The notes under the pieces are model-generated. The model saw only the letters and a list, made by a program, of their open reading frames with translations, had not been told where the DNA came from and did not search any database. Source: Bacteroidales bacterium (GTDB lineage Bacteria > Bacteroidota > Bacteroidia > Bacteroidales > JAAYJT01). From it: a stretch of DNA of 64,000 bases. Below, one piece after another: positions 10,384 through 60,850 of this stretch. A program made the translations under genes and the position numbers. How positions within the stretch are numbered: the stretch's first letter is position 1; the number at the start of each line of letters is the position of its first letter. The stretch lies in NCBI GenBank assembly GCA_014860575.1, contig JACZJK010000026.1, positions 1 through 64,000 of the forward strand, in the 5' to 3' direction.

Positions 10384-10391
10384 TAACTTTG
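10384..10391 (+). promoter_or_regulatory. -7 element (TAACTTTG) ahead of alaS
   Basis: Exact TAnnTTTG match 57 nt before the alaS ATG. It argues against the earlier in-frame TTG at 10389, which lies inside it. Confidence 0.5.
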
Positions 10392-10448
10392 CAAGTTTTT
10401 GATAAAACTGACCTATTAACAGCCATTATTTTACGAATTTTTAACTCT

Positions 10449-13061
10449 ATGAACTCATCTGAGGTAAGAAAAAAATTTTTGCAATTCTTTGAGAGCAAGG
10501 GCCATCAGATTGTTTCTTCGGCGCCGATGGTGGTTAAGGACGACCCGACACTGATGTTTACAAATGCCGGTATGAACCAGTTCAAGGATATCTTTCTTGG
10601 CAATAGCCCGGCAAAGTACAAGAGGGTGGTGAATACGCAAAAGTGCCTTCGCGTTTCAGGAAAGCATAACGACCTCGAAGAAGTGGGGCACGATACTTAC
10701 CACCACACCATGTTCGAAATGCTTGGCAATTGGTCTTTTGGCGATTATTTCAAGAAAGAAGCCATTGCATGGGCCTGGGAATTATTGACAGGGGTGTATA
10801 AAATTTCGCCTGAGCATTTGTACGTTACCGTTTTTGGCGGCGATGAACACGATGGAATCCTATGGGACGAAGAGGCTTTCGGTTATTGGAATGAAATTGT
10901 TACCGAAGATAAAATCCTTAAAGGAAACAAAAAGGATAACTTCTGGGAAATGGGCGATACCGGTCCATGTGGCCCATGTTCAGAAATTCATATTGACTTA
11001 AGAAGTGATTCTGAAAAATCTCTGGTTCCAGGAAAAGACTTAGTAAACACAGGGCATCCACAGGTTATTGAGATTTGGAACCTTGTGTTTATTCAGTTTA
11101 ACCGCCAATCGGATGGCAGGCTGGTTTCACTGCCGGCTCAGCATGTGGATACAGGTATGGGTTTCGAACGATTGTGTATGGCTTTGCAACATAAACAATC
11201 AAATTACGATACCGATGTTTTTCAACCCGTAATCCGTAAAATTGAGTCAATTACCGGTTTTAAATATGGAATCAAAACCGAGACAGACATTGCCATGCGC
11301 GTTATTGCTGACCATCTCAGAGCCGTAAGCTTTGCTATTGCTGATGGTCAACTTCCGTCGAATAATAAAGCCGGTTATGTGATCCGAAGGATACTGCGCC
11401 GGGCAGTCCGGTATGGATATAGTTATCTTGAACGCAAAGAGCCGTTTATCTTCGAACTTCTTCCAGTACTTGTTGGAGAAATGGGTGATTTTTTTCCAGA
11501 ACTCAAATCACAGCAGCAAATTATAAGTAAGGTAATTCATGAAGAAGAAGCTTCATTTATCAGAACCCTGGCCACCGGAATCAACCGGTTTAAGAACTAC
11601 ACCAGGGAAGAGAAACATGGTGGTGTAATTTCAGGATCGTTTGCTTTTGAACTTTATGATACCTATGGTTTTCCGATTGATTTGACCCAACTCATGGCCC
11701 GCGAAGAGAACCTTGAAGTTGACATGAAGCAATTCGAATCTGAGCTCAGCCTTCAGAAGCAACGTTCGCGCAATGACGCAGTTGTGGAAACCAGCGATTG
11801 GATCATGCTGAGCCACGAAAGCGAAACCAGGTTCACAGGTTGGGATGAAACCAAGGCACAGGTGAATCTTTTAAGGTATCGTTTAGTCAAATCCAAAGGA
11901 AAGGATCTTATTCATGCCATCACTGACATTACTCCTTTTTACCCCGAAAGTGGAGGGCAAATTGGCGACAAAGGTTTCTTCGAGCAGAATGGCGTCCATT
12001 ATCAGGTTATTGACACCCGCAAAGAAAACAACCTGATAATTCATATTCTTGAATCTTTTCCAGCAAAGCCGGAACCTGTCTTCGATGCGATTGTTGATGT
12101 CGGAAGCAGGACGCTCACAGCCAATAATCACTCGGCTACACATTTAATGCACGAGGGCTTGCGTAAAATTCTGGGATCGCATGTTGAGCAGAAAGGTTCG
12201 TACGTGGGGCCGGATTACCTGCGTTTTGACTTTTCGCATTTCAGTAAAATGACCCAGGAAGAGATCAAAGCGGTTGAGGCGTTTGTGAACCAGAAGATCA
12301 GGATGAACCTTCCGATTGACGAACACCGCAACATGCCACGGCATGATGCTGAGAAAATCGGCGCCTTGATGTTTTTTGGTGAAAAGTATGGTGAAGAGGT
12401 CCGTGTGATCCGTTTCGGCGAATCCGTTGAACTCTGCGGAGGAACTCATGTTTCTGCTACCGGGCAAATCGGATTGTTCCGGATCATCTCGGAAAGTGCA
12501 ATTGCGGCTGGCATTCGGCGGATTGAGGCTGTAACTGCCACAAAAGCTGACGAATATATTGAAAACAAGATTGCTTTGCTGGATGAACTGGCTGGCTTGA
12601 TTAAAAATACTGCCGATCCACTCAAGGGACTTAAGAATTTGTTGGATCAGAACAACCTGTTGCAAAAACAGTTAGCTGAAAAGGATAGTTTGCTTGCACA
12701 AATTGAGAAAGACAAGCTTTTAGCGCTTGCCATCCCTATTAATAATATGAATCTTGTAACGCAAACCACACAGCTTGATGCAAATGCTATTAAAGAATTA
12801 GCCTATGATCTGAAGGAAAACGGGGAGCGATTGGTAATGTTATTAGGTTCGGTAAAAGATTCAAAACCAAACCTCAGCCTGATTATAAGTAAGGATTTGC
12901 TTGCTGAAGGCAAACTTGATGCAAGTAAAATGATAAGGGAGTTAGCGAAAGAAATCCAGGGTGGAGGAGGAGGGCAACCTTATTTTGCAACCGCAGGCGG
13001 GAAAAATGTCATAGGCATTGACATTGCATTCGATAAAATTCGTCAGATGCTCCAAGATTAA
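10449..13061 (+). CDS. alaS: Alanyl-tRNA synthetase
   Basis: Class II synthetase charging tRNA-Ala. 870 residues from ATG 10449. The catalytic core begins MNSSEVRKKFLQFFESKGH with motif 1 (SAPMVVKDDPTLMFTNAGM); the editing domain carries the zinc-site residues HSATHLMH and CGGTH; the short C-Ala domain ends with GGGGGQPYFATAGG. All expected domains are present at normal length. The upstream 20 in-frame codons overlap the promoter and are not used. A hairpin (TTCAGC/GCTGAA) follows the stop but lacks a T-tract. Confidence 0.97.
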   Translation: MNSSEVRKKFLQFFESKGHQIVSSAPMVVKDDPTLMFTNAGMNQFKDIFLGNSPAKYKRVVNTQKCLRVSGKHNDLEEVGHDTYHHTMFEMLGNWSFGDYFKKEAIAWAWELLTGVYKISPEHLYVTVFGGDEHDGILWDEEAFGYWNEIVTEDKILKGNKKDNFWEMGDTGPCGPCSEIHIDLRSDSEKSLVPGKDLVNTGHPQVIEIWNLVFIQFNRQSDGRLVSLPAQHVDTGMGFERLCMALQHKQSNYDTDVFQPVIRKIESITGFKYGIKTETDIAMRVIADHLRAVSFAIADGQLPSNNKAGYVIRRILRRAVRYGYSYLERKEPFIFELLPVLVGEMGDFFPELKSQQQIISKVIHEEEASFIRTLATGINRFKNYTREEKHGGVISGSFAFELYDTYGFPIDLTQLMAREENLEVDMKQFESELSLQKQRSRNDAVVETSDWIMLSHESETRFTGWDETKAQVNLLRYRLVKSKGKDLIHAITDITPFYPESGGQIGDKGFFEQNGVHYQVIDTRKENNLIIHILESFPAKPEPVFDAIVDVGSRTLTANNHSATHLMHEGLRKILGSHVEQKGSYVGPDYLRFDFSHFSKMTQEEIKAVEAFVNQKIRMNLPIDEHRNMPRHDAEKIGALMFFGEKYGEEVRVIRFGESVELCGGTHVSATGQIGLFRIISESAIAAGIRRIEAVTATKADEYIENKIALLDELAGLIKNTADPLKGLKNLLDQNNLLQKQLAEKDSLLAQIEKDKLLALAIPINNMNLVTQTTQLDANAIKELAYDLKENGERLVMLLGSVKDSKPNLSLIISKDLLAEGKLDASKMIRELAKEIQGGGGGQPYFATAGGKNVIGIDIAFDKIRQMLQD

Positions 13062-13107: not shown

Positions 13108-13130
13108 GGTATATTGAGGGTATTATTGAG
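13108..13130. repeat. Tandem GGTATATTGAG / GGTATTATTGAG pair upstream of the MerR-B12 gene
   Basis: An 11-bp and a 12-bp copy lie directly next to each other about 140 bp before the regulator's start. Their period is close to one helical turn, as in CarH operators, but the sequence differs from the repeats at the sigma and EamA promoters. Confidence 0.35.
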
Positions 13131-13271
13131 TTTTACAAACTTTTTCATTAAAGAATTGTTAACCTTTATGCATTACTACTGATAAGTCGTGATACGATTA
13201 AACATCTCAAATATTTACTACTAATCCTTTCCATAGGGCAAAAGTCATCAACACAAAACCAGCAGACATCA

Positions 13272-14150
13272 ATGGTTAACTATTCCATCACTGATCTTGA
13301 AAAAATAACTGGGATCAAAGCGCACACTATTCGTATCTGGGAAAAACGCTACCGGGTTGTAACTCCCGAACGTACCACAACAAACATCCGCTATTATTCT
13401 GACAATGATCTGAAAAGGCTACTGAATATTTCTATGCTTAACCGCTATGGTTACCGGATTTCTTCAATCGTAAAGATGTCGACAGATGAGTTGAGTAAAA
13501 AAGTGATGGATATTTCAGAGAGTTCAAATGATTATAATCTTCAGATCGAGCACCTCATTGTATCTATGATGGAGCTAAATGAAGAAAAGTTTGAAAAAGT
13601 TCTTTCCAATGCCCTAATAAAACTCGGTTTCGAAAATGCGGTTACAGGTATCATTTATCCATTTCTCGAAAAAGTCGGGATACTCTGGTTAGTTGGCACC
13701 ATTAATCCTGCACAGGAGCATTTTATTGTAAATCTTATCCGCCAAAAAATTATTGCAGCCATTGATGGTCTGATGGTAACCCCATCGCCTGAGGCTAAGA
13801 AATTCATTCTTTTTCTTCCGCCAGGCGAATTGCATGAATTAAGTCTTCTTTTTTCCTGGTACATGTTAAAAAAGCATGGTCATAAAGTGCTTTATTTCGG
13901 ACAATCACTTCCCATCGAGGATTTAAAAAAAGTGTCACAAATCCAGGCTCCGGATTATATGCTCACTGTAATCACTGCAGCACAAACAAACGAACAGTAC
14001 CTTTATCTGATTAATACTCTGTCAAGAGGCCTCCCTGATGTCGTAATCTTTATTACAGGATTGCAAACCCGCGAGCATCTAATCAGCCTGCCTGAAAACA
14101 TCATCCTTCTTGAGAACCCGAGCGATATCCCTGATTTTATTTCCGTATAG
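13272..14150 (+). CDS. MerR-type regulator with B12-binding domain (CarH/LitR-like)
   Basis: A 292-residue regulator. Residues 3-70 are a MerR winged helix (SITDLEKITGIKAHTIRIWEKRY); 88-165 a four-helix B12 cap; 176-292 a Rossmann B12-binding fold. The CarH cap signature W-x9-EH is exact (W139, E149, H150), and the lower-ligand motif is E186-L-H188-E-L-S191, i.e. (E/D)xHxxG with Ser for Gly. Known relatives use adenosylcobalamin as a light sensor: a dark tetramer represses, light releases it. This is therefore probably a B12 photoreceptor or B12 sensor. No carotenoid genes are nearby; the next same-strand gene is an ECF sigma factor, as in several Bacteroidota loci. Confidence 0.85.
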   Translation: MVNYSITDLEKITGIKAHTIRIWEKRYRVVTPERTTTNIRYYSDNDLKRLLNISMLNRYGYRISSIVKMSTDELSKKVMDISESSNDYNLQIEHLIVSMMELNEEKFEKVLSNALIKLGFENAVTGIIYPFLEKVGILWLVGTINPAQEHFIVNLIRQKIIAAIDGLMVTPSPEAKKFILFLPPGELHELSLLFSWYMLKKHGHKVLYFGQSLPIEDLKKVSQIQAPDYMLTVITAAQTNEQYLYLINTLSRGLPDVVIFITGLQTREHLISLPENIILLENPSDIPDFISV

Positions 14151-14403
14151 ATTAGCGGGCATTTCCATTTTTTTTATTTCAAAAGCATACCTGAGTACGA
14201 TTTAATGGTATCAGGATTATGACACCGACAACCTGTCACGAAACATGTAGTCGCATAAAACTACTTAACTGTCTATTAAATAGGATTATAAAATTATGAT
14301 TAATATCTACTGTTTAATATGCATGATTTTTGTATGAACTAAGTGAAGTAATTCTTAATAGATGTAACAAGCATGGAATCAGTCAAATAATGACGTACAA
14401 TAT

Positions 14404-14425
14404 TTTTTAACAAATTTTTAACAGT
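14404..14425 (+). promoter_or_regulatory. Two 11-bp direct repeats (TTTTTAACAnn), candidate operator
   Basis: TTTTTAACAAA (14404-14414) is followed directly by TTTTTAACAGT (14415-14425), with a weak third copy TTTTGATACCC. They lie just upstream of the expected -33 region of the ECF sigma promoter. CarH-type proteins are known to bind tandem 11-bp direct repeats at their promoters, and such a regulator is encoded directly upstream. The binding itself is inference. Confidence 0.5.
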
Positions 14426-14455
14426 TTTTGATACCCGGAAACCTGACTTTGTGTT

Positions 14456-14463
14456 TAACTTTG
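14456..14463 (+). promoter_or_regulatory. -7 element (TAACTTTG) of the ECF sigma gene
   Basis: Exact TAnnTTTG match 50 nt before ATG 14514. The nearest TTTG (14427-14430) is 25 nt upstream, longer than ideal, which fits a promoter that needs help or is repressed. Confidence 0.5.
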
Positions 14464-14513
14464 CTTCATCAAGATTTAAACAAACAAAATTATTAATCAA
14501 ATCCCGAACCATT

Positions 14514-15020
14514 ATGACAGCGATCGAATTCAACCTCGAATTAATCAATCTGCATAGCAGCCTTAAATTTTTTGCCAATACTCTTGCCTCAAGTTCCGAA
14601 GAAGCTGACGACCTGATTCAGGATACATACCTTAAAGCTTTAACCAACCGGGATAAGTTTGCCGAGAATACAAATCTGAAAGCCTGGACATACACAATAA
14701 TGAAGAACACTTTCATTAATAATTACAGGCGCAATGTAAAAGCCAGCACTATTGTTGATTCCACCAAGGATCTTTATTATCTGAATGTTCCACGCAGAGA
14801 GCAGCAATTTACACCTGAGGGCGAACTTTCAACCAAGGAAATCCATGCCAGCATCCTTGAACTGGATGAAGAGCAAAGATTGCCATTTGAAATGCATACT
14901 GCCGGATATAAGTACAAGGAGATTGCTGATGAGCTGAATCTATCCATAGGCACAGTGAAAAGCCGCATTTTCTTTACCCGCAAAAAATTGATGGAAGCTC
15001 TTAAAGAATTTCAGAATTAA
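14514..15020 (+). CDS. ECF-type RNA polymerase sigma factor
   Basis: A 168-residue sigma-70 family factor with only regions 2 and 4. Region 2 covers about residues 8-70 (SSEEADDLIQDTYLKAL, LKAWTYTIMKNTFINNYR); region 4 about 105-160 (YKYKEIADELNLSIGTVKSRIFFTRKKL). No anti-sigma gene is adjacent, so control is probably at transcription, by the preceding MerR-B12 protein or otherwise. ATG 14514 is used because the in-frame TTG/ATG-like starts upstream overlap the -7 element. Its regulon is unknown. Confidence 0.9.
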   Translation: MTAIEFNLELINLHSSLKFFANTLASSSEEADDLIQDTYLKALTNRDKFAENTNLKAWTYTIMKNTFINNYRRNVKASTIVDSTKDLYYLNVPRREQQFTPEGELSTKEIHASILELDEEQRLPFEMHTAGYKYKEIADELNLSIGTVKSRIFFTRKKLMEALKEFQN

Positions 15021-15053
15021 GTGTGAATTTCTTAGGATTATGAATCTGATCAG

Positions 15054-15084
15054 GTTCGGTTAGCCTATAACCGGACTTTTTTTT
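15054..15084 (+). terminator. Intrinsic terminator after the ECF sigma gene
   Basis: A 9-bp stem with one G-U pair (GTTCGGTTA / TAACCGGAC), 5-nt loop GCCTA, followed by eight T. It separates the sigma gene from the convergent EamA gene. Confidence 0.8.
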
Positions 15085-15096
15085 GCAACACTTTAT

Positions 15097-16035
15097 TTAT
15101 GACTCTGCTGAAGCGTGCCTTAGGTTCAGCATAACTATGGCAAACATCAGTATTAATGCACTGATCCATTGTACTGCTGTTAATTGCTGCTTGTTTATGA
15201 GATAATCAAGGAGTATAGCTGTGAGGGGAAAACATAATTCGCAAATTGTTGCAACCATAGCCCGCACGTGCCTCAAACCATAATAATACAGGAAAATGGC
15301 CCCAGAACCAGTGGTAAATGCTATGATGAAGAAAATAAGCCAGTTACGTGTGGTTGTCAACGCCAATTGTTCAAATTGGTTCGTAAGAATAACAAAAATC
15401 AACATAAGTACAGTAGTAAAGCCATAGCGGTAAAAAGTGGCTGTATGGAATGAATACCGGTTCAGAATTTTTTTCCCAAAAACCGTTGCACTTCCAAAAG
15501 AAGCTGCAGCAAGCAGTGCAAACAAAGAAGCATAAATTGTCTGTCTATTTGTTTCTACATCCGGAAGTTTGAACCCAAAAGTTAAAAAGTAGCCTGCAAA
15601 TATAGCCAGAATCGCCCAGATAAAAAACCCCTTGCGTGGCCTTTCGCCGAGCATAATGGCTGCCAGAGCAATTGCAAAAATTGGCTGGGTTTTCTGCAAA
15701 AGAACTACTATACTCAGTTTCTTAAACTCGACTAAAAAAAGTGCTTTCACTATGGATAGTGTACCAATAGCTCCTCCGAACAAGGCAACCAATAACAAAA
15801 TTCCTACATCAGCCCTTGTAAATTCCTTTACATGCCTGTATTCCCTGAACAGGAAAATATTCATGATTGTGAATGGAATCAGATGTAGCATAAATACCAC
15901 GTACCCAACATCAAGGTTGTAAAGATTTGGCGTGAGTACGATGCCATCAACACCCCACATTGCTGCCGCAAAGCAGATAGCTATGGCTCCTGAAATTGCT
16001 GCCCTTCTGTTATTGGTTAATGGATTTGGTGTCAT
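15097..16035 (-). CDS. EamA/DMT-family transporter
   Basis: A 312-residue inner-membrane protein with about ten hydrophobic helices in two EamA repeats (about 15-145 and 165-305), typical of drug/metabolite exporters. Small motifs such as FGGAIGTLSIVKALFL and GERPRKGF fit the family. The substrate cannot be told. The ATG at 16035 lies only about 20 bp from an eight-unit 11-bp tandem repeat that spans its promoter. It is separated from the sigma gene by a terminator and may belong to the same regulatory circuit. Confidence 0.88.
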   Translation of the reverse strand: MTPNPLTNNRRAAISGAIAICFAAAMWGVDGIVLTPNLYNLDVGYVVFMLHLIPFTIMNIFLFREYRHVKEFTRADVGILLLVALFGGAIGTLSIVKALFLVEFKKLSIVVLLQKTQPIFAIALAAIMLGERPRKGFFIWAILAIFAGYFLTFGFKLPDVETNRQTIYASLFALLAAASFGSATVFGKKILNRYSFHTATFYRYGFTTVLMLIFVILTNQFEQLALTTTRNWLIFFIIAFTTGSGAIFLYYYGLRHVRAMVATICELCFPLTAILLDYLINKQQLTAVQWISALILMFAIVMLNLRHASAES

Positions 16036-16048
16036 TTTTTGGTCATCC

Positions 16049-16080
16049 GAAAATTATACAATGTTCATACAGTGTTCAAA
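16049..16080 (-). promoter_or_regulatory. Promoter of the EamA gene inside the 11-bp repeat
   Basis: On the minus strand, TTTG (16080-16077) and TAATTTTC (16056-16049) are separated by 20 nt; only the last base of the -7 consensus differs. The -33 box lies in the third repeat unit and the -7 box runs into the first, so the repeat array forms the promoter. The predicted transcript leader is very short. Confidence 0.5.
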
Positions 16081-16142
16081 CAATGGTCATACAATGGTCA
16101 AACAGTAGTGGAGCGATGGTCATACAATGATCATACGATTGT
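16055..16142. repeat. Eight-unit 11-bp tandem repeat (consensus CATACAATGGT)
   Basis: Units begin at 16055, 16066, 16077, 16088, 16099, 16110, 16121 and 16132, each exactly 11 bp. The ACA at unit positions 4-6 is kept in six of eight; unit 6 (GGAGCGATGGT) is the most diverged. The period is one helical turn, so all units face the same side of the DNA. The array covers the EamA promoter and runs about 85 bp upstream. Confidence 0.9.
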
Positions 16143-16191: not shown

Positions 16192-16713
16192 CTACAAAAA
16201 TGTTCCCGCCTCTTCTTTAACAGCTCCAATCGCCCTGGCAACCGGATCATGTTCAAGAGAAGCATGTAATTCGAGAAGCCTGGAGGCCAGATCATGTGCC
16301 TGCGAATCACCACGCAATTGGCCAGCCGCAGAATTTATCAGCCTGATCATCTCTTCCCGCGCAGTTCGTACCAATTCCCAGGCTCCACTTGAGATATACA
16401 GTTGTTGTGATAAATTGTGGTCGAATTCATCCCTGATGTTTTGAACCAGCAAAGCTTGAAACTGCAGGGCGTTTATACCCGGTTGGCTGATACGCAAAAT
16501 CAGATGGTTAGGTGAAATGCGTTCGAGCAACAAAATTATCCTCTCGTAGGCTTGCATGCGAACCGGAAAAATTTCTTTTTGCATGGCCCGGTGACGCTCA
16601 TTTTCAAACTTCAAAGCTTCATGCTTAAAAAATCTGTGAATTATCAGATATACCGCCAGCAACATGATAGCCGCCGGAAGAGTATATTTTAAGATTTCGA
16701 GAAAAATTAGCAT
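16192..16713 (-). CDS. Conserved membrane-anchored protein of unknown function
   Basis: A 173-residue protein with one N-terminal transmembrane helix (about residues 7-27) and a long helical cytoplasmic part. It resembles a small family found throughout Bacteroidota (PVRMQAYERIILLLERISP region at about 50-70), for which I know no function. No catalytic motif is visible. It stands alone between a phrase-rich spacer (16143-16191) and the divergent aminotransferase gene. Confidence 0.7.
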   Translation of the reverse strand: MLIFLEILKYTLPAAIMLLAVYLIIHRFFKHEALKFENERHRAMQKEIFPVRMQAYERIILLLERISPNHLILRISQPGINALQFQALLVQNIRDEFDHNLSQQLYISSGAWELVRTAREEMIRLINSAAGQLRGDSQAHDLASRLLELHASLEHDPVARAIGAVKEEAGTFL

Positions 16714-21939: not shown

Positions 21940-22077
21940 AATTCAAGAAATTCAAGATTCAATATTCTTGATTCAAGATTCAAGATTCTGGATTCAACAT
22001 TGTTCCTTATCTAGTTAAAACAGAGGATTTTGAATTTCGAATTTTGAATTTTGAATTTTGAATTAAAAATAAATTAA
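21940..22077. repeat. Low-complexity phrase repeats between radC and wecB
   Basis: Repeats of ATTCAAGATTC-type words (21945-21995), then GAATTTTGAATTTTGAATT runs just before wecB (22030-22065). The words resemble those of the islands at 1-128 and 35727-36043. The two halves partly complement each other (TTCAA/TTGAA), so a long weak hairpin is possible. Confidence 0.7.
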
Positions 22078-34718: not shown

Positions 34719-35726
34719 ATGAGAAACCAACTTCTTACCGGACTGGTGTTTATTTGCCTGTATTCCTGTCAGCCAACGCCTCCTGACCAACTCTTCAAAT
34801 TCCAGGGGCGCGCCCAGGGAACATATTACGAAATAACATATTACGATACCAAAGGCCGGAATTTCCAGCCAGAAATTGATTCCCTGCTCAACGCTTTCAA
34901 CTTTTCATTATCCACCTACGAACCCAAATCCATTATTTCAAGAATAAACCGCGATGAGGCTGATGTAGAAGTGGATGAATGGTTCAGGACTGTTTTTCTC
35001 AAGTCCGTAGACGTGGCAGAAAAAACCGGTGGCAGCTTTGATTTCTCAGTTGGTCCGCTTGTGAATGCATGGGGCTTTGGTTTTACTGACCGTATAAAAA
35101 TAAACCCGCACGTCATAGATAGCTTGCTGAAATTTGTTGGTTATAAAAACTTTGAACTTCAGGGCAATAAAATAACCAAGAATATCTGCGGTTCAAAACT
35201 TGATTTCAACGCCATTGCCCAGGGGTATGCCGTTGATGTTGTTGGCGATTTTCTGCAATCGAAAGGTGTGAAGGTGTTCCTGGTTGATATCGGAGGGGAA
35301 GTGCTGGCCCACGGTCATAAACCGGATGGCAGCTTATGGAAGATTGGTGTAGAAAGCCCTGCGGACGAAGCGAGCAGCAGCCGTGAACTGAAAGCCGTTA
35401 TTGCCCTTGAAAACAGAGCTATTGCCACTTCAGGAAATTACCGCAAGTTTTATGAAGAAGATGGTATGCGATACTCCCACACTATTGACCCATTTACAGG
35501 CTATCCGGTTCGTCACAGTTTGTTAAGCGCTTCCGTGCTTGCCAGCGATTGCATGACTGCCGATGCTTATGCTACAGCTTTCATGGTTAAAGGGGTTGAA
35601 CCAACTATTGAATTTCTGAAATCTAATCCGGAACTGGAAGCTTACCTCATCTACTCCGCCGATAATGGTAAAATAAAAACCTGGGCCAGCGATGGGTTTC
35701 AGGCGTTGATTGAGAAAACCTATTAG
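34719..35726 (+). CDS. apbE: FAD:protein FMN transferase (ApbE), lipoprotein
   Basis: Flavin transferase that attaches FMN to the threonines of NqrB and NqrC outside the cytoplasm. 335 residues. A lipoprotein signal (CLYSC at about 15-19) anchors it; the ApbE fold shows QGTYYEITYY, STYEPKSIISRIN, LDFNAIAQGYAVDVVG, VDIGGEVLAHG and the metal/FAD motif TADAYATAFMV. It follows nqrF by 100 bp on the same strand, so the locus encodes both the pump and its flavinylation enzyme. Confidence 0.94.
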   Translation: MRNQLLTGLVFICLYSCQPTPPDQLFKFQGRAQGTYYEITYYDTKGRNFQPEIDSLLNAFNFSLSTYEPKSIISRINRDEADVEVDEWFRTVFLKSVDVAEKTGGSFDFSVGPLVNAWGFGFTDRIKINPHVIDSLLKFVGYKNFELQGNKITKNICGSKLDFNAIAQGYAVDVVGDFLQSKGVKVFLVDIGGEVLAHGHKPDGSLWKIGVESPADEASSSRELKAVIALENRAIATSGNYRKFYEEDGMRYSHTIDPFTGYPVRHSLLSASVLASDCMTADAYATAFMVKGVEPTIEFLKSNPELEAYLIYSADNGKIKTWASDGFQALIEKTY

Positions 35727-36043
35727 ATTTACGATTGAAGATTTACGATTTACGATTTAGGATTTTAATAGAACGCTGACACGTGCGCCGCGGCGTATGA
35801 CGCGGATTAAACAGATTTTCGCGGGTTTATTTGTGATGCAGTTATACTGTAGCGCAGTAGTCAAATAGTCAATTAGTTAAATGGTAAATTGGTGGAGAAA
35901 TGGAGTGTTGGGGTGATGGAGTAATAGAGTAGTGAATGGTTAATTGGAATTTGGGCTTTAGACTTTGAATAATGAGCTTTGGACTTCAAACTTGAGGCTT
36001 GGAACTTGGGATTTGGGACTTGAGACCTTGAGCTTGGGGCTTA
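35727..36043. repeat. Phrase-repeat island between apbE and the ABC permease
   Basis: 317 bp with no gene. It opens with GATTTACGATT repeats (35728-35765), continues with an ACGCGGATTAAACAGATTTTCG-like stretch (35810-35830), then TGGAG-, AATGGAGT- and TTAATTGG-type words, and ends with ACTTG/GCTTGG words. The 35880-36040 part repeats the vocabulary of 1-128 on the opposite strand. Confidence 0.7.
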
Positions 36044-60639: not shown

Positions 60640-60850
60640 CTTGTTTCTTGTTTCAGTTTGTAGGTTTCAGATTCAAGGTTCAAGGTTGCAGGATTCCTGC
60701 CCTTTCGTCCCTCGTCCCCGATTCCTGTTTCTTGTTTATGGTTCCAGGTTGCTAGTTCCTCATCCCTTCGTCCCCTCATCCCTTCGTCCCTTCGTCCCTC
60801 GTCCCTGTTTCCTGTTTCTTGTCTCTTGTGTCTTGTTTCAAACTCTTCCA
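60640..60850. repeat. Phrase-repeat island between pirin and M16 genes
   Basis: TTCTTGTTTC, TTCAAGGTTCAAGG, CCCTTCGTCCC and TCCTGTTTCTTG words recur through about 210 bp, with no reading frame of interest. It belongs to the same style as the islands near 1, 21940 and 35727. Confidence 0.7.

Follow-up and report, generated by a model that had tools for sequence, protein, structure and literature searches.

We analysed a window of 64,000 nucleotides from a Bacteroidales bacterium (assembly GCA_014860575.1, contig JACZJK010000026.1, positions 1 to 64,000), in which a gene for a CarH/LitR-like regulator with MerR and B12-binding domains (carH in the following) is followed by genes for an extracytoplasmic function (ECF) sigma factor and an EamA transporter. 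With a probability of roughly 0.7, the carH-ECF pair represents the CarH/LitR light circuit in a Bacteroidota version, in which CarH would repress the ECF gene through the palindrome TGTTTAA-N17-TTAAACA in front of it, while the EamA gene would be a passenger. The palindrome was missed in an earlier note on this DNA, which had tied regulator, sigma factor and exporter together by 11-bp direct repeats.

The palindrome lies 31 bp upstream of the start codon of the ECF gene, which was selected by comparison with relatives, and none of 200 shuffles gave an equally good match. Its general form, TGTTTAA-N16/17-TTAAACA, is common to the ECF upstream regions of relatives, and both arms hold TnnACA, the CarH half-site (PMC9304148), in facing orientation. 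Counts were compared with reversed sequences or the reversed pattern as control. The best 80 Bacteroidota carH loci of a longer list (the named set, gathered by CarH alignment, 647 kb) contain 101 copies that match 13 or 14 of the 14 arm bases, versus 3 in the reversed control. The spacer is 16 bp in 82 copies and 17 bp in 19, and the remaining spacers between 0 and 59 yielded 0 to 8 copies each. By the gene within 260 bp, 70 copies are assigned to ECF genes, 12 to carH, 6 to fasciclin genes, 4 to crtZ, one each to crtI and photolyase and 7 to others. Altogether, 59 of the 80 loci possess the palindrome, and 47 of the 51 with an ECF relative (at least 45% identity) carry it before the ECF gene. 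Copies that lie within less than 260 bp of each other (25 close pairs) are spaced 62-64 bp in nine cases and 130-153 bp in another nine. The former distance, about six helical turns, occurs before the ECF gene in L313, L317, L328, L333 and other loci, and such pairs could reflect cooperative or looped binding.

On the scale of whole genomes, the genome under study has five exact sites, versus none for the reversed pattern. A wider scan for exact sites gave 58 versus 6 reversed matches in carH-positive genomes and 7 versus 15 in 16 of the 36 carH-minus genomes of the order; these numbers, summed by hand, are illustrative, since the carH-positive genomes were 10 of the 24 from the order, picked with the site already seen, and 13 of the 80 named ones, picked after their loci had been seen. 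Of 24 carH-positive sites retrieved as lying at an unknown gene (one of them, L398, belongs to an ECF gene), 17 are intergenic and at most 150 bp before a predicted start, as compared to none of 7 sites from carH-minus genomes. A 12-base pattern gave a modest contrast across 60 genomes of the order (hand-summed, 63 versus 45 in carH-positive, 66 versus 123 in carH-minus genomes), and the loose pattern TGTTTA-N16/20-TNAACA was uninformative genome-wide (18 versus 14-15).

The site also follows the presence of the regulator. Within the 60 genomes, 24 were counted as carH-positive (match of 2.3e-40 or better; the next best match below this cut-off is 2.3e-7), and an ECF relative at 1e-30 is present in 32, of which 21 are carH-positive and 11 carH-minus. 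The palindrome (at least 13/14 arm bases, within 250 bp) precedes the ECF gene in 15 of these 21, but in none of the 11 carH-minus genomes (Fisher p 1.1e-4, a test that treats genomes as independent and ignores kinship, which weakens the case). This count covers 38 ECF copies, with the best copy taken per genome; G031 was scored by its third copy, and G047 offers only 72 bp upstream. In G033, G035, G039 and G042 the palindrome is found before the ECF gene although carH lies on a different contig. The ECF gene of G048 was scored as unlinked, yet both contigs end there and it may adjoin carH. In the named genomes G061, G062, G066 and G067, an exact copy lies 14 to 38 bp before an ECF match that is not beside carH in the examined stretch or has less than 45% identity. 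Finally, a Chryseobacterium metagenome-assembled genome (completeness not stated) has no ECF relative at 1e-20 but three exact palindromes, one of them before carH. Since the site tracks carH, including in the genomes with unlinked contigs and in the ECF-less Chryseobacterium, CarH is favoured as the protein that reads it.

The two genes themselves also recur together. In 16 of 25 order-level loci, carH is immediately followed by the ECF gene. Within the named loci, crtI and crtB both lie inside the stretch in 19 of the 80, 16 of which also have the ECF gene. The link between a CarH-like sensor and an ECF sigma gene, as proposed in the earlier note, is thus supported, since the gene pair and an operator-like site recur across Bacteroidota and the B12 residues of the regulator are kept.

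The regulator itself matches the Pfam models MerR_1 (8.8e-16) and B12-binding_2 (1.7e-7), whereas the Rossmann B12-binding model of Pfam gave no match. We can confirm the earlier observation that it keeps the W-x9-EH motif and the lower-ligand histidine: W139-x9-E149-H150 and E186-x-H188 are present, and in a HMMER alignment to the PDB sequence of Thermus CarH (1.4e-18) tryptophan, EH pair and histidine are in register, so that residues matching W131, E141, H142 and H177 (Thermus numbering) are all found. Among 15 orthologues, W139 and E149 are invariant, and H150 and H188 are kept in at least 90%. All four signatures of light-responsive cobalamin domains, GxxW, EH, GxxH and GxxxP (PMC11796333), occur as well. 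The AlphaFold model has a mean predicted local distance difference test (pLDDT) score of 86.3, and its top fold match is full-length Thermus CarH (5c8d; E 1.5e-15, TM 0.58 and 0.60); the root-mean-square deviation of 9.3 means that the domains are positioned differently in the model. The protein is therefore CarH-like by sequence and modelled fold, and binding of DNA in the dark dependent on adenosylcobalamin (AdoCbl) is predicted. A cobalamin adenosyltransferase is encoded in the same genome and in 53 of the 60 genomes of the order. Diverged carH relatives without the EH pair and the lower-ligand histidine exist in G046 and G056 (L051 and L052), neither of which has an ECF relative at 1e-30; these proteins are possibly B12-independent, like CarA.

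Judged by the genes that it precedes, the palindrome probably lets the CarH-like repressor switch the ECF gene together with pigment and photoprotection genes. In the genome under study, exact sites precede the ECF gene, a fasciclin gene, a TonB receptor gene, a DUF6992 gene followed by a glutathione peroxidase gene, and an SDR gene followed by one without Pfam match that is SRPBCC-like by eye. One-mismatch sites are found upstream of two further genes, one for a SOUL haem-binding protein and one for a DUF4397 protein, about 80 bp away in the latter case. In other genomes the site is associated with TonB receptor, DUF4397 and SRPBCC-like genes and with genes for 6-pyruvoyl-tetrahydropterin synthase, GTP cyclohydrolase-like, phytoene desaturase and CrtD-like proteins. 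Six genomes share orthologous TonB-dependent receptors (L128:595-2976 on contig C56 of the genome under study; L375, L376, L381, L387 and L179), which are 49-63% identical and have a CarboxypepD_reg-like N-terminus; an exact palindrome lies 2 to 124 bp upstream of the start of each.

The carotenoid genes deserve special attention. The earlier note pointed out that carotenoid and photolyase genes are missing, which holds for the window but not for the genome, where phytoene synthase is encoded on contig C57 and a photolyase on contig C21, and crtI, crtB, a NUDIX gene and a hydroxylase gene are consecutive. The suggestion that a sigma factor and an exporter are controlled instead of carotenoid genes is not supported: a site with 12/14 arm bases lies upstream of the genome's own crtI (p about 0.013), and exact sites are found at the carotenoid loci of some carH-positive relatives. 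A site of at least 12/14 in the roughly 180 bp upstream of crtI or crtB is present in 9 of 19 carH-positive versus none of 6 carH-minus genomes, and 7 of the 19 have at least 13/14. Phytoene synthase co-occurs with carH (19 of 24 carH-positive versus 6 of 36 carH-minus genomes, p 2.3e-6), whereas co-occurrence of the photolyase is weak (11 of 24 versus 8 of 36, counted by hand). The photolyase was rejected as a direct target in the genome under study, where a loose match overlapping its start codon failed the scored test. By eye, none of ten flanking proteins in the order appeared pigment-related, with no family search having been made on these ten.

The position of the palindrome suggests how the ECF gene might be controlled. 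The -7 element of Bacteroidota promoters is TAnnTTTG. In the spacer-16 ECF promoters, the left arm continues into TTTAAnTTTG in 15 of 46, and the other 31 are without this left-arm form; a TTG is found 19 bp upstream in 7 of the 15 and 20 bp upstream in 2. In the window, the corresponding TAACTTTG has no TTG 19 bp upstream. A protein occupying the palindrome would mask a promoter of this kind, and therefore repression is the natural reading. In the dark, an AdoCbl-bound CarH oligomer would hold the palindrome, whose arms would act as inverted TnnACA half-sites separated by about two helical turns, and block the promoter. Light would break the cobalt-carbon bond, CarH would release the DNA and the ECF factor would be made, which together with the directly freed genes might provide photoprotection. 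We also consider it somewhat more likely than not that across Bacteroidota CarH reads an inverted-repeat operator running one shared light or B12 regulon. Such an operator would consist of facing TnnACA half-sites with a spacer of 16 or 17 bp, doubled at 62-64 bp in 9 of the 25 close pairs, and the regulon would comprise carH itself in some species, the ECF gene, carotenoid, fasciclin, DUF4397, SRPBCC-like and pterin genes and the TonB receptor.

It is conceivable that the palindrome is instead the promoter recognized by the ECF factor, with the arms as -35 and -10 elements, and that the factor activates itself and other genes. Spacers of 16 or 17 bp fit an ECF promoter, and most copies (70 of 101) lie before ECF genes. 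However, none of the 11 carH-minus genomes keeps the site before its ECF gene, the Chryseobacterium genome of unstated completeness has three exact copies and no ECF relative, the copies in L125, L126 and L381 are separated from the predicted start by 0 to 2 bp, too little for a -10 element, and a promoter would not need mirror-image arms. This explanation is unlikely. Similarly improbable is a different dimeric regulator that merely co-occurs with CarH. Palindromes usually indicate a symmetric dimer and co-occurrence differs from binding, yet 12 of the 101 copies precede carH and most others an ECF gene next to carH, and both arms contain the half-site known for CarH (PMC9304148).

The protein might also report B12 status, with light having no role. 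The protein class includes B12-independent members, and the TonB receptor, a recurrent target in six genomes, could be a nutrient uptake system. On the other hand, the complete set of light-response signatures (PMC11796333) and the carotenoid genes among the targets speak for light, so that we regard this, too, as improbable, if anything slightly more so than the two preceding explanations. The circuit of the earlier note, in which CarH acts through 11-bp direct repeats on both the ECF and EamA genes, is very improbable, although a part of its evidence stands. The repeat at the ECF promoter exists (Tandem Repeats Finder: 14402-14429, 2.5 copies), and its TTAACA pair is kept at a similar place in both other genomes of the genus (G001 and G002), but a TnnACA triple at 11-bp spacing occurs nowhere in the window, only two copies standing in tandem here, and the exact TnnACA pair turns up only sporadically beyond the genus. 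For CarH, operators containing only one full repeat or two are reported as well (PMC9304148). TWAACA pairs of period 11 are found in 8 of the 51 named ECF upstream regions, the top value among periods 1-40 (next: 5 at period 7). Since it is kept in the genus and this period recurs, the TTAACA repeat may be a minor CarH site.

The repeats across the EamA promoter are real as well, but they do not make the exporter a target. Most units of the array lack TnnACA, which occurs between 16036 and 16160 once on the plus strand (16055) and three times on the minus strand (16062, 16073 and 16140). Units like ATACAATGGTC stand in tandem elsewhere in the genome (C16:311412, C16:185210, C16:212797, C19:30029, C21:140919, C21:160437, C26:122478 and C5:239351), and no 11-bp array was seen upstream of 8 other EamA genes. 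We therefore read the array as a dispersed minisatellite, unconserved at EamA and mostly devoid of TnnACA, in a window that has other arrays. The latter are short tandem arrays whose units measure 7 or 8 bp and multiples thereof (24-99, 21950-22064, 35726-36042 and 60650-60839). L033 (G059) has a longer repeated stretch of its own before an EamA gene, unlike the array in the window. The EamA promoter reaches a best palindrome score of 9/14, and the gene adjoins the carH-ECF pair in only 6 of 25 order-level and 3 of 80 named loci. EamA, which was rejected as a target on these grounds, does not seem to belong to the circuit. Hence, the comparison with relatives that the earlier note had suggested bears out the carH-ECF order and the TTAACA pair within the genus, but not the EamA array.

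Several observations weigh against repression through the palindrome. The studied CarH operators are tandem 11-bp direct repeats and not inverted ones spaced by 16 or 17 bp, and an earlier proposal of inverted repeats for CarA has since been discounted (PMC9304148). The NCBIfam CarH equivalog NF052513 is the best family match of the regulator but its cut-off is not reached (107.2 bits versus 400); because of this low score we call the protein CarH-like and not an equivalog. The palindrome was not found in 21 of the 80 named loci, and a site of at least 13/14 is missing at the ECF gene of 6 of the 21 carH-positive genomes (G009, G024, G026, G040, G045 and G059). Furthermore, 10 of the 19 carH-positive carotenoid loci have no site of at least 12/14, the one at crtI in the genome under study is limited to 12/14, and the photolyase and carH promoters there show no palindrome (10/14, p 0.26 and 0.49). 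With two mismatches allowed, this genome has no excess over the reversed pattern (49 versus 47 and 62 versus 57).

The features are compiled in Table 1; the gene order in the window is alaS, carH, ECF sigma gene, EamA and DUF7935 gene.

Table 1. Features in and around the carH-ECF locus (positions in the window)
Feature	Position	Strand	Basis or remark
Palindrome TGTTTAA-N17-TTAAACA, proposed CarH operator of the ECF gene	14452-14482	.	14/14 arm bases; conserved
CarH/LitR-like MerR and B12-binding regulator, 292 amino acids	13272-14150	+	Pfam, PDB sequence match, fold match
ECF sigma factor, 168 amino acids, proposed main target	14514-15020	+	Start ATG 14514; Sigma70_r2 6.1e-14, Sigma70_r4_2 1.5e-13
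TAACTTTG, fits -7 element TAnnTTTG, overlaps left arm	14456-14463	+	Sequence; pattern in relatives
Two TTAACA copies 11 bp apart (14407, 14418), possible minor CarH site	14407-14423	+	Kept in G001, G002
EamA transporter, judged passenger	15097-16035	-	Rarely beside pair; no palindrome
11-bp tandem array, copy of dispersed minisatellite, judged outside circuit	16056-16136	.	7.4 copies; just upstream of EamA
alaS	10389-13061	+	Upstream neighbour of carH
DUF7935 gene	16192-16713	-	Beyond EamA

The wiring of such a sensor to a sigma factor is not new, since Streptomyces LitR-LitS already has it: there, crt genes are transcribed by an ECF sigma factor under the control of a B12-based MerR sensor (PMC12705666). 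Both systems join a B12-MerR gene with an ECF sigma gene, and LitS directs a carotenoid (crtE) promoter. However, LitR-LitS belongs to another phylum, LitR promotes litS transcription in light, and the available part of that paper does not mention a palindrome (PMC12705666). The CarH proteins of Thermus, Bacillus megaterium and myxobacteria resemble the regulator described here in domain order, B12 residues, TnnACA half-site and carotenoid targets (PMC9304148). Myxococcus, with CarQ-CarR-CarS and CarA, likewise combines an ECF sigma factor and a CarH-type regulator for light-induced pigment, but CarQ is freed from an anti-sigma factor (PMC9304148). Within the same phylum, Chryseobacterium lacus makes a carotenoid in light, and a gene adjoining crtB was guessed to be CarA/LitR-like; in the available part of that work, however, regulator and operator are not identified (PMC7064467). 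The palindromic operator and the shared regulon appear to be new as far as the open-access literature was searched, most subscription papers lying outside its scope; no account of the palindrome or of a Bacteroidota CarH operator was found there.

If the proposed circuit is true, a large phylum would share one computable operator for B12-based light sensing. Such a common operator would make the regulon readable from genomes, including those of uncultured bacteria, and testable with one 31-bp probe. A CarH-type protein acting on inverted half-sites would be useful for green-light genetic switches, and the orthologous TonB receptor would emerge as a candidate for a light- or B12-controlled uptake system.

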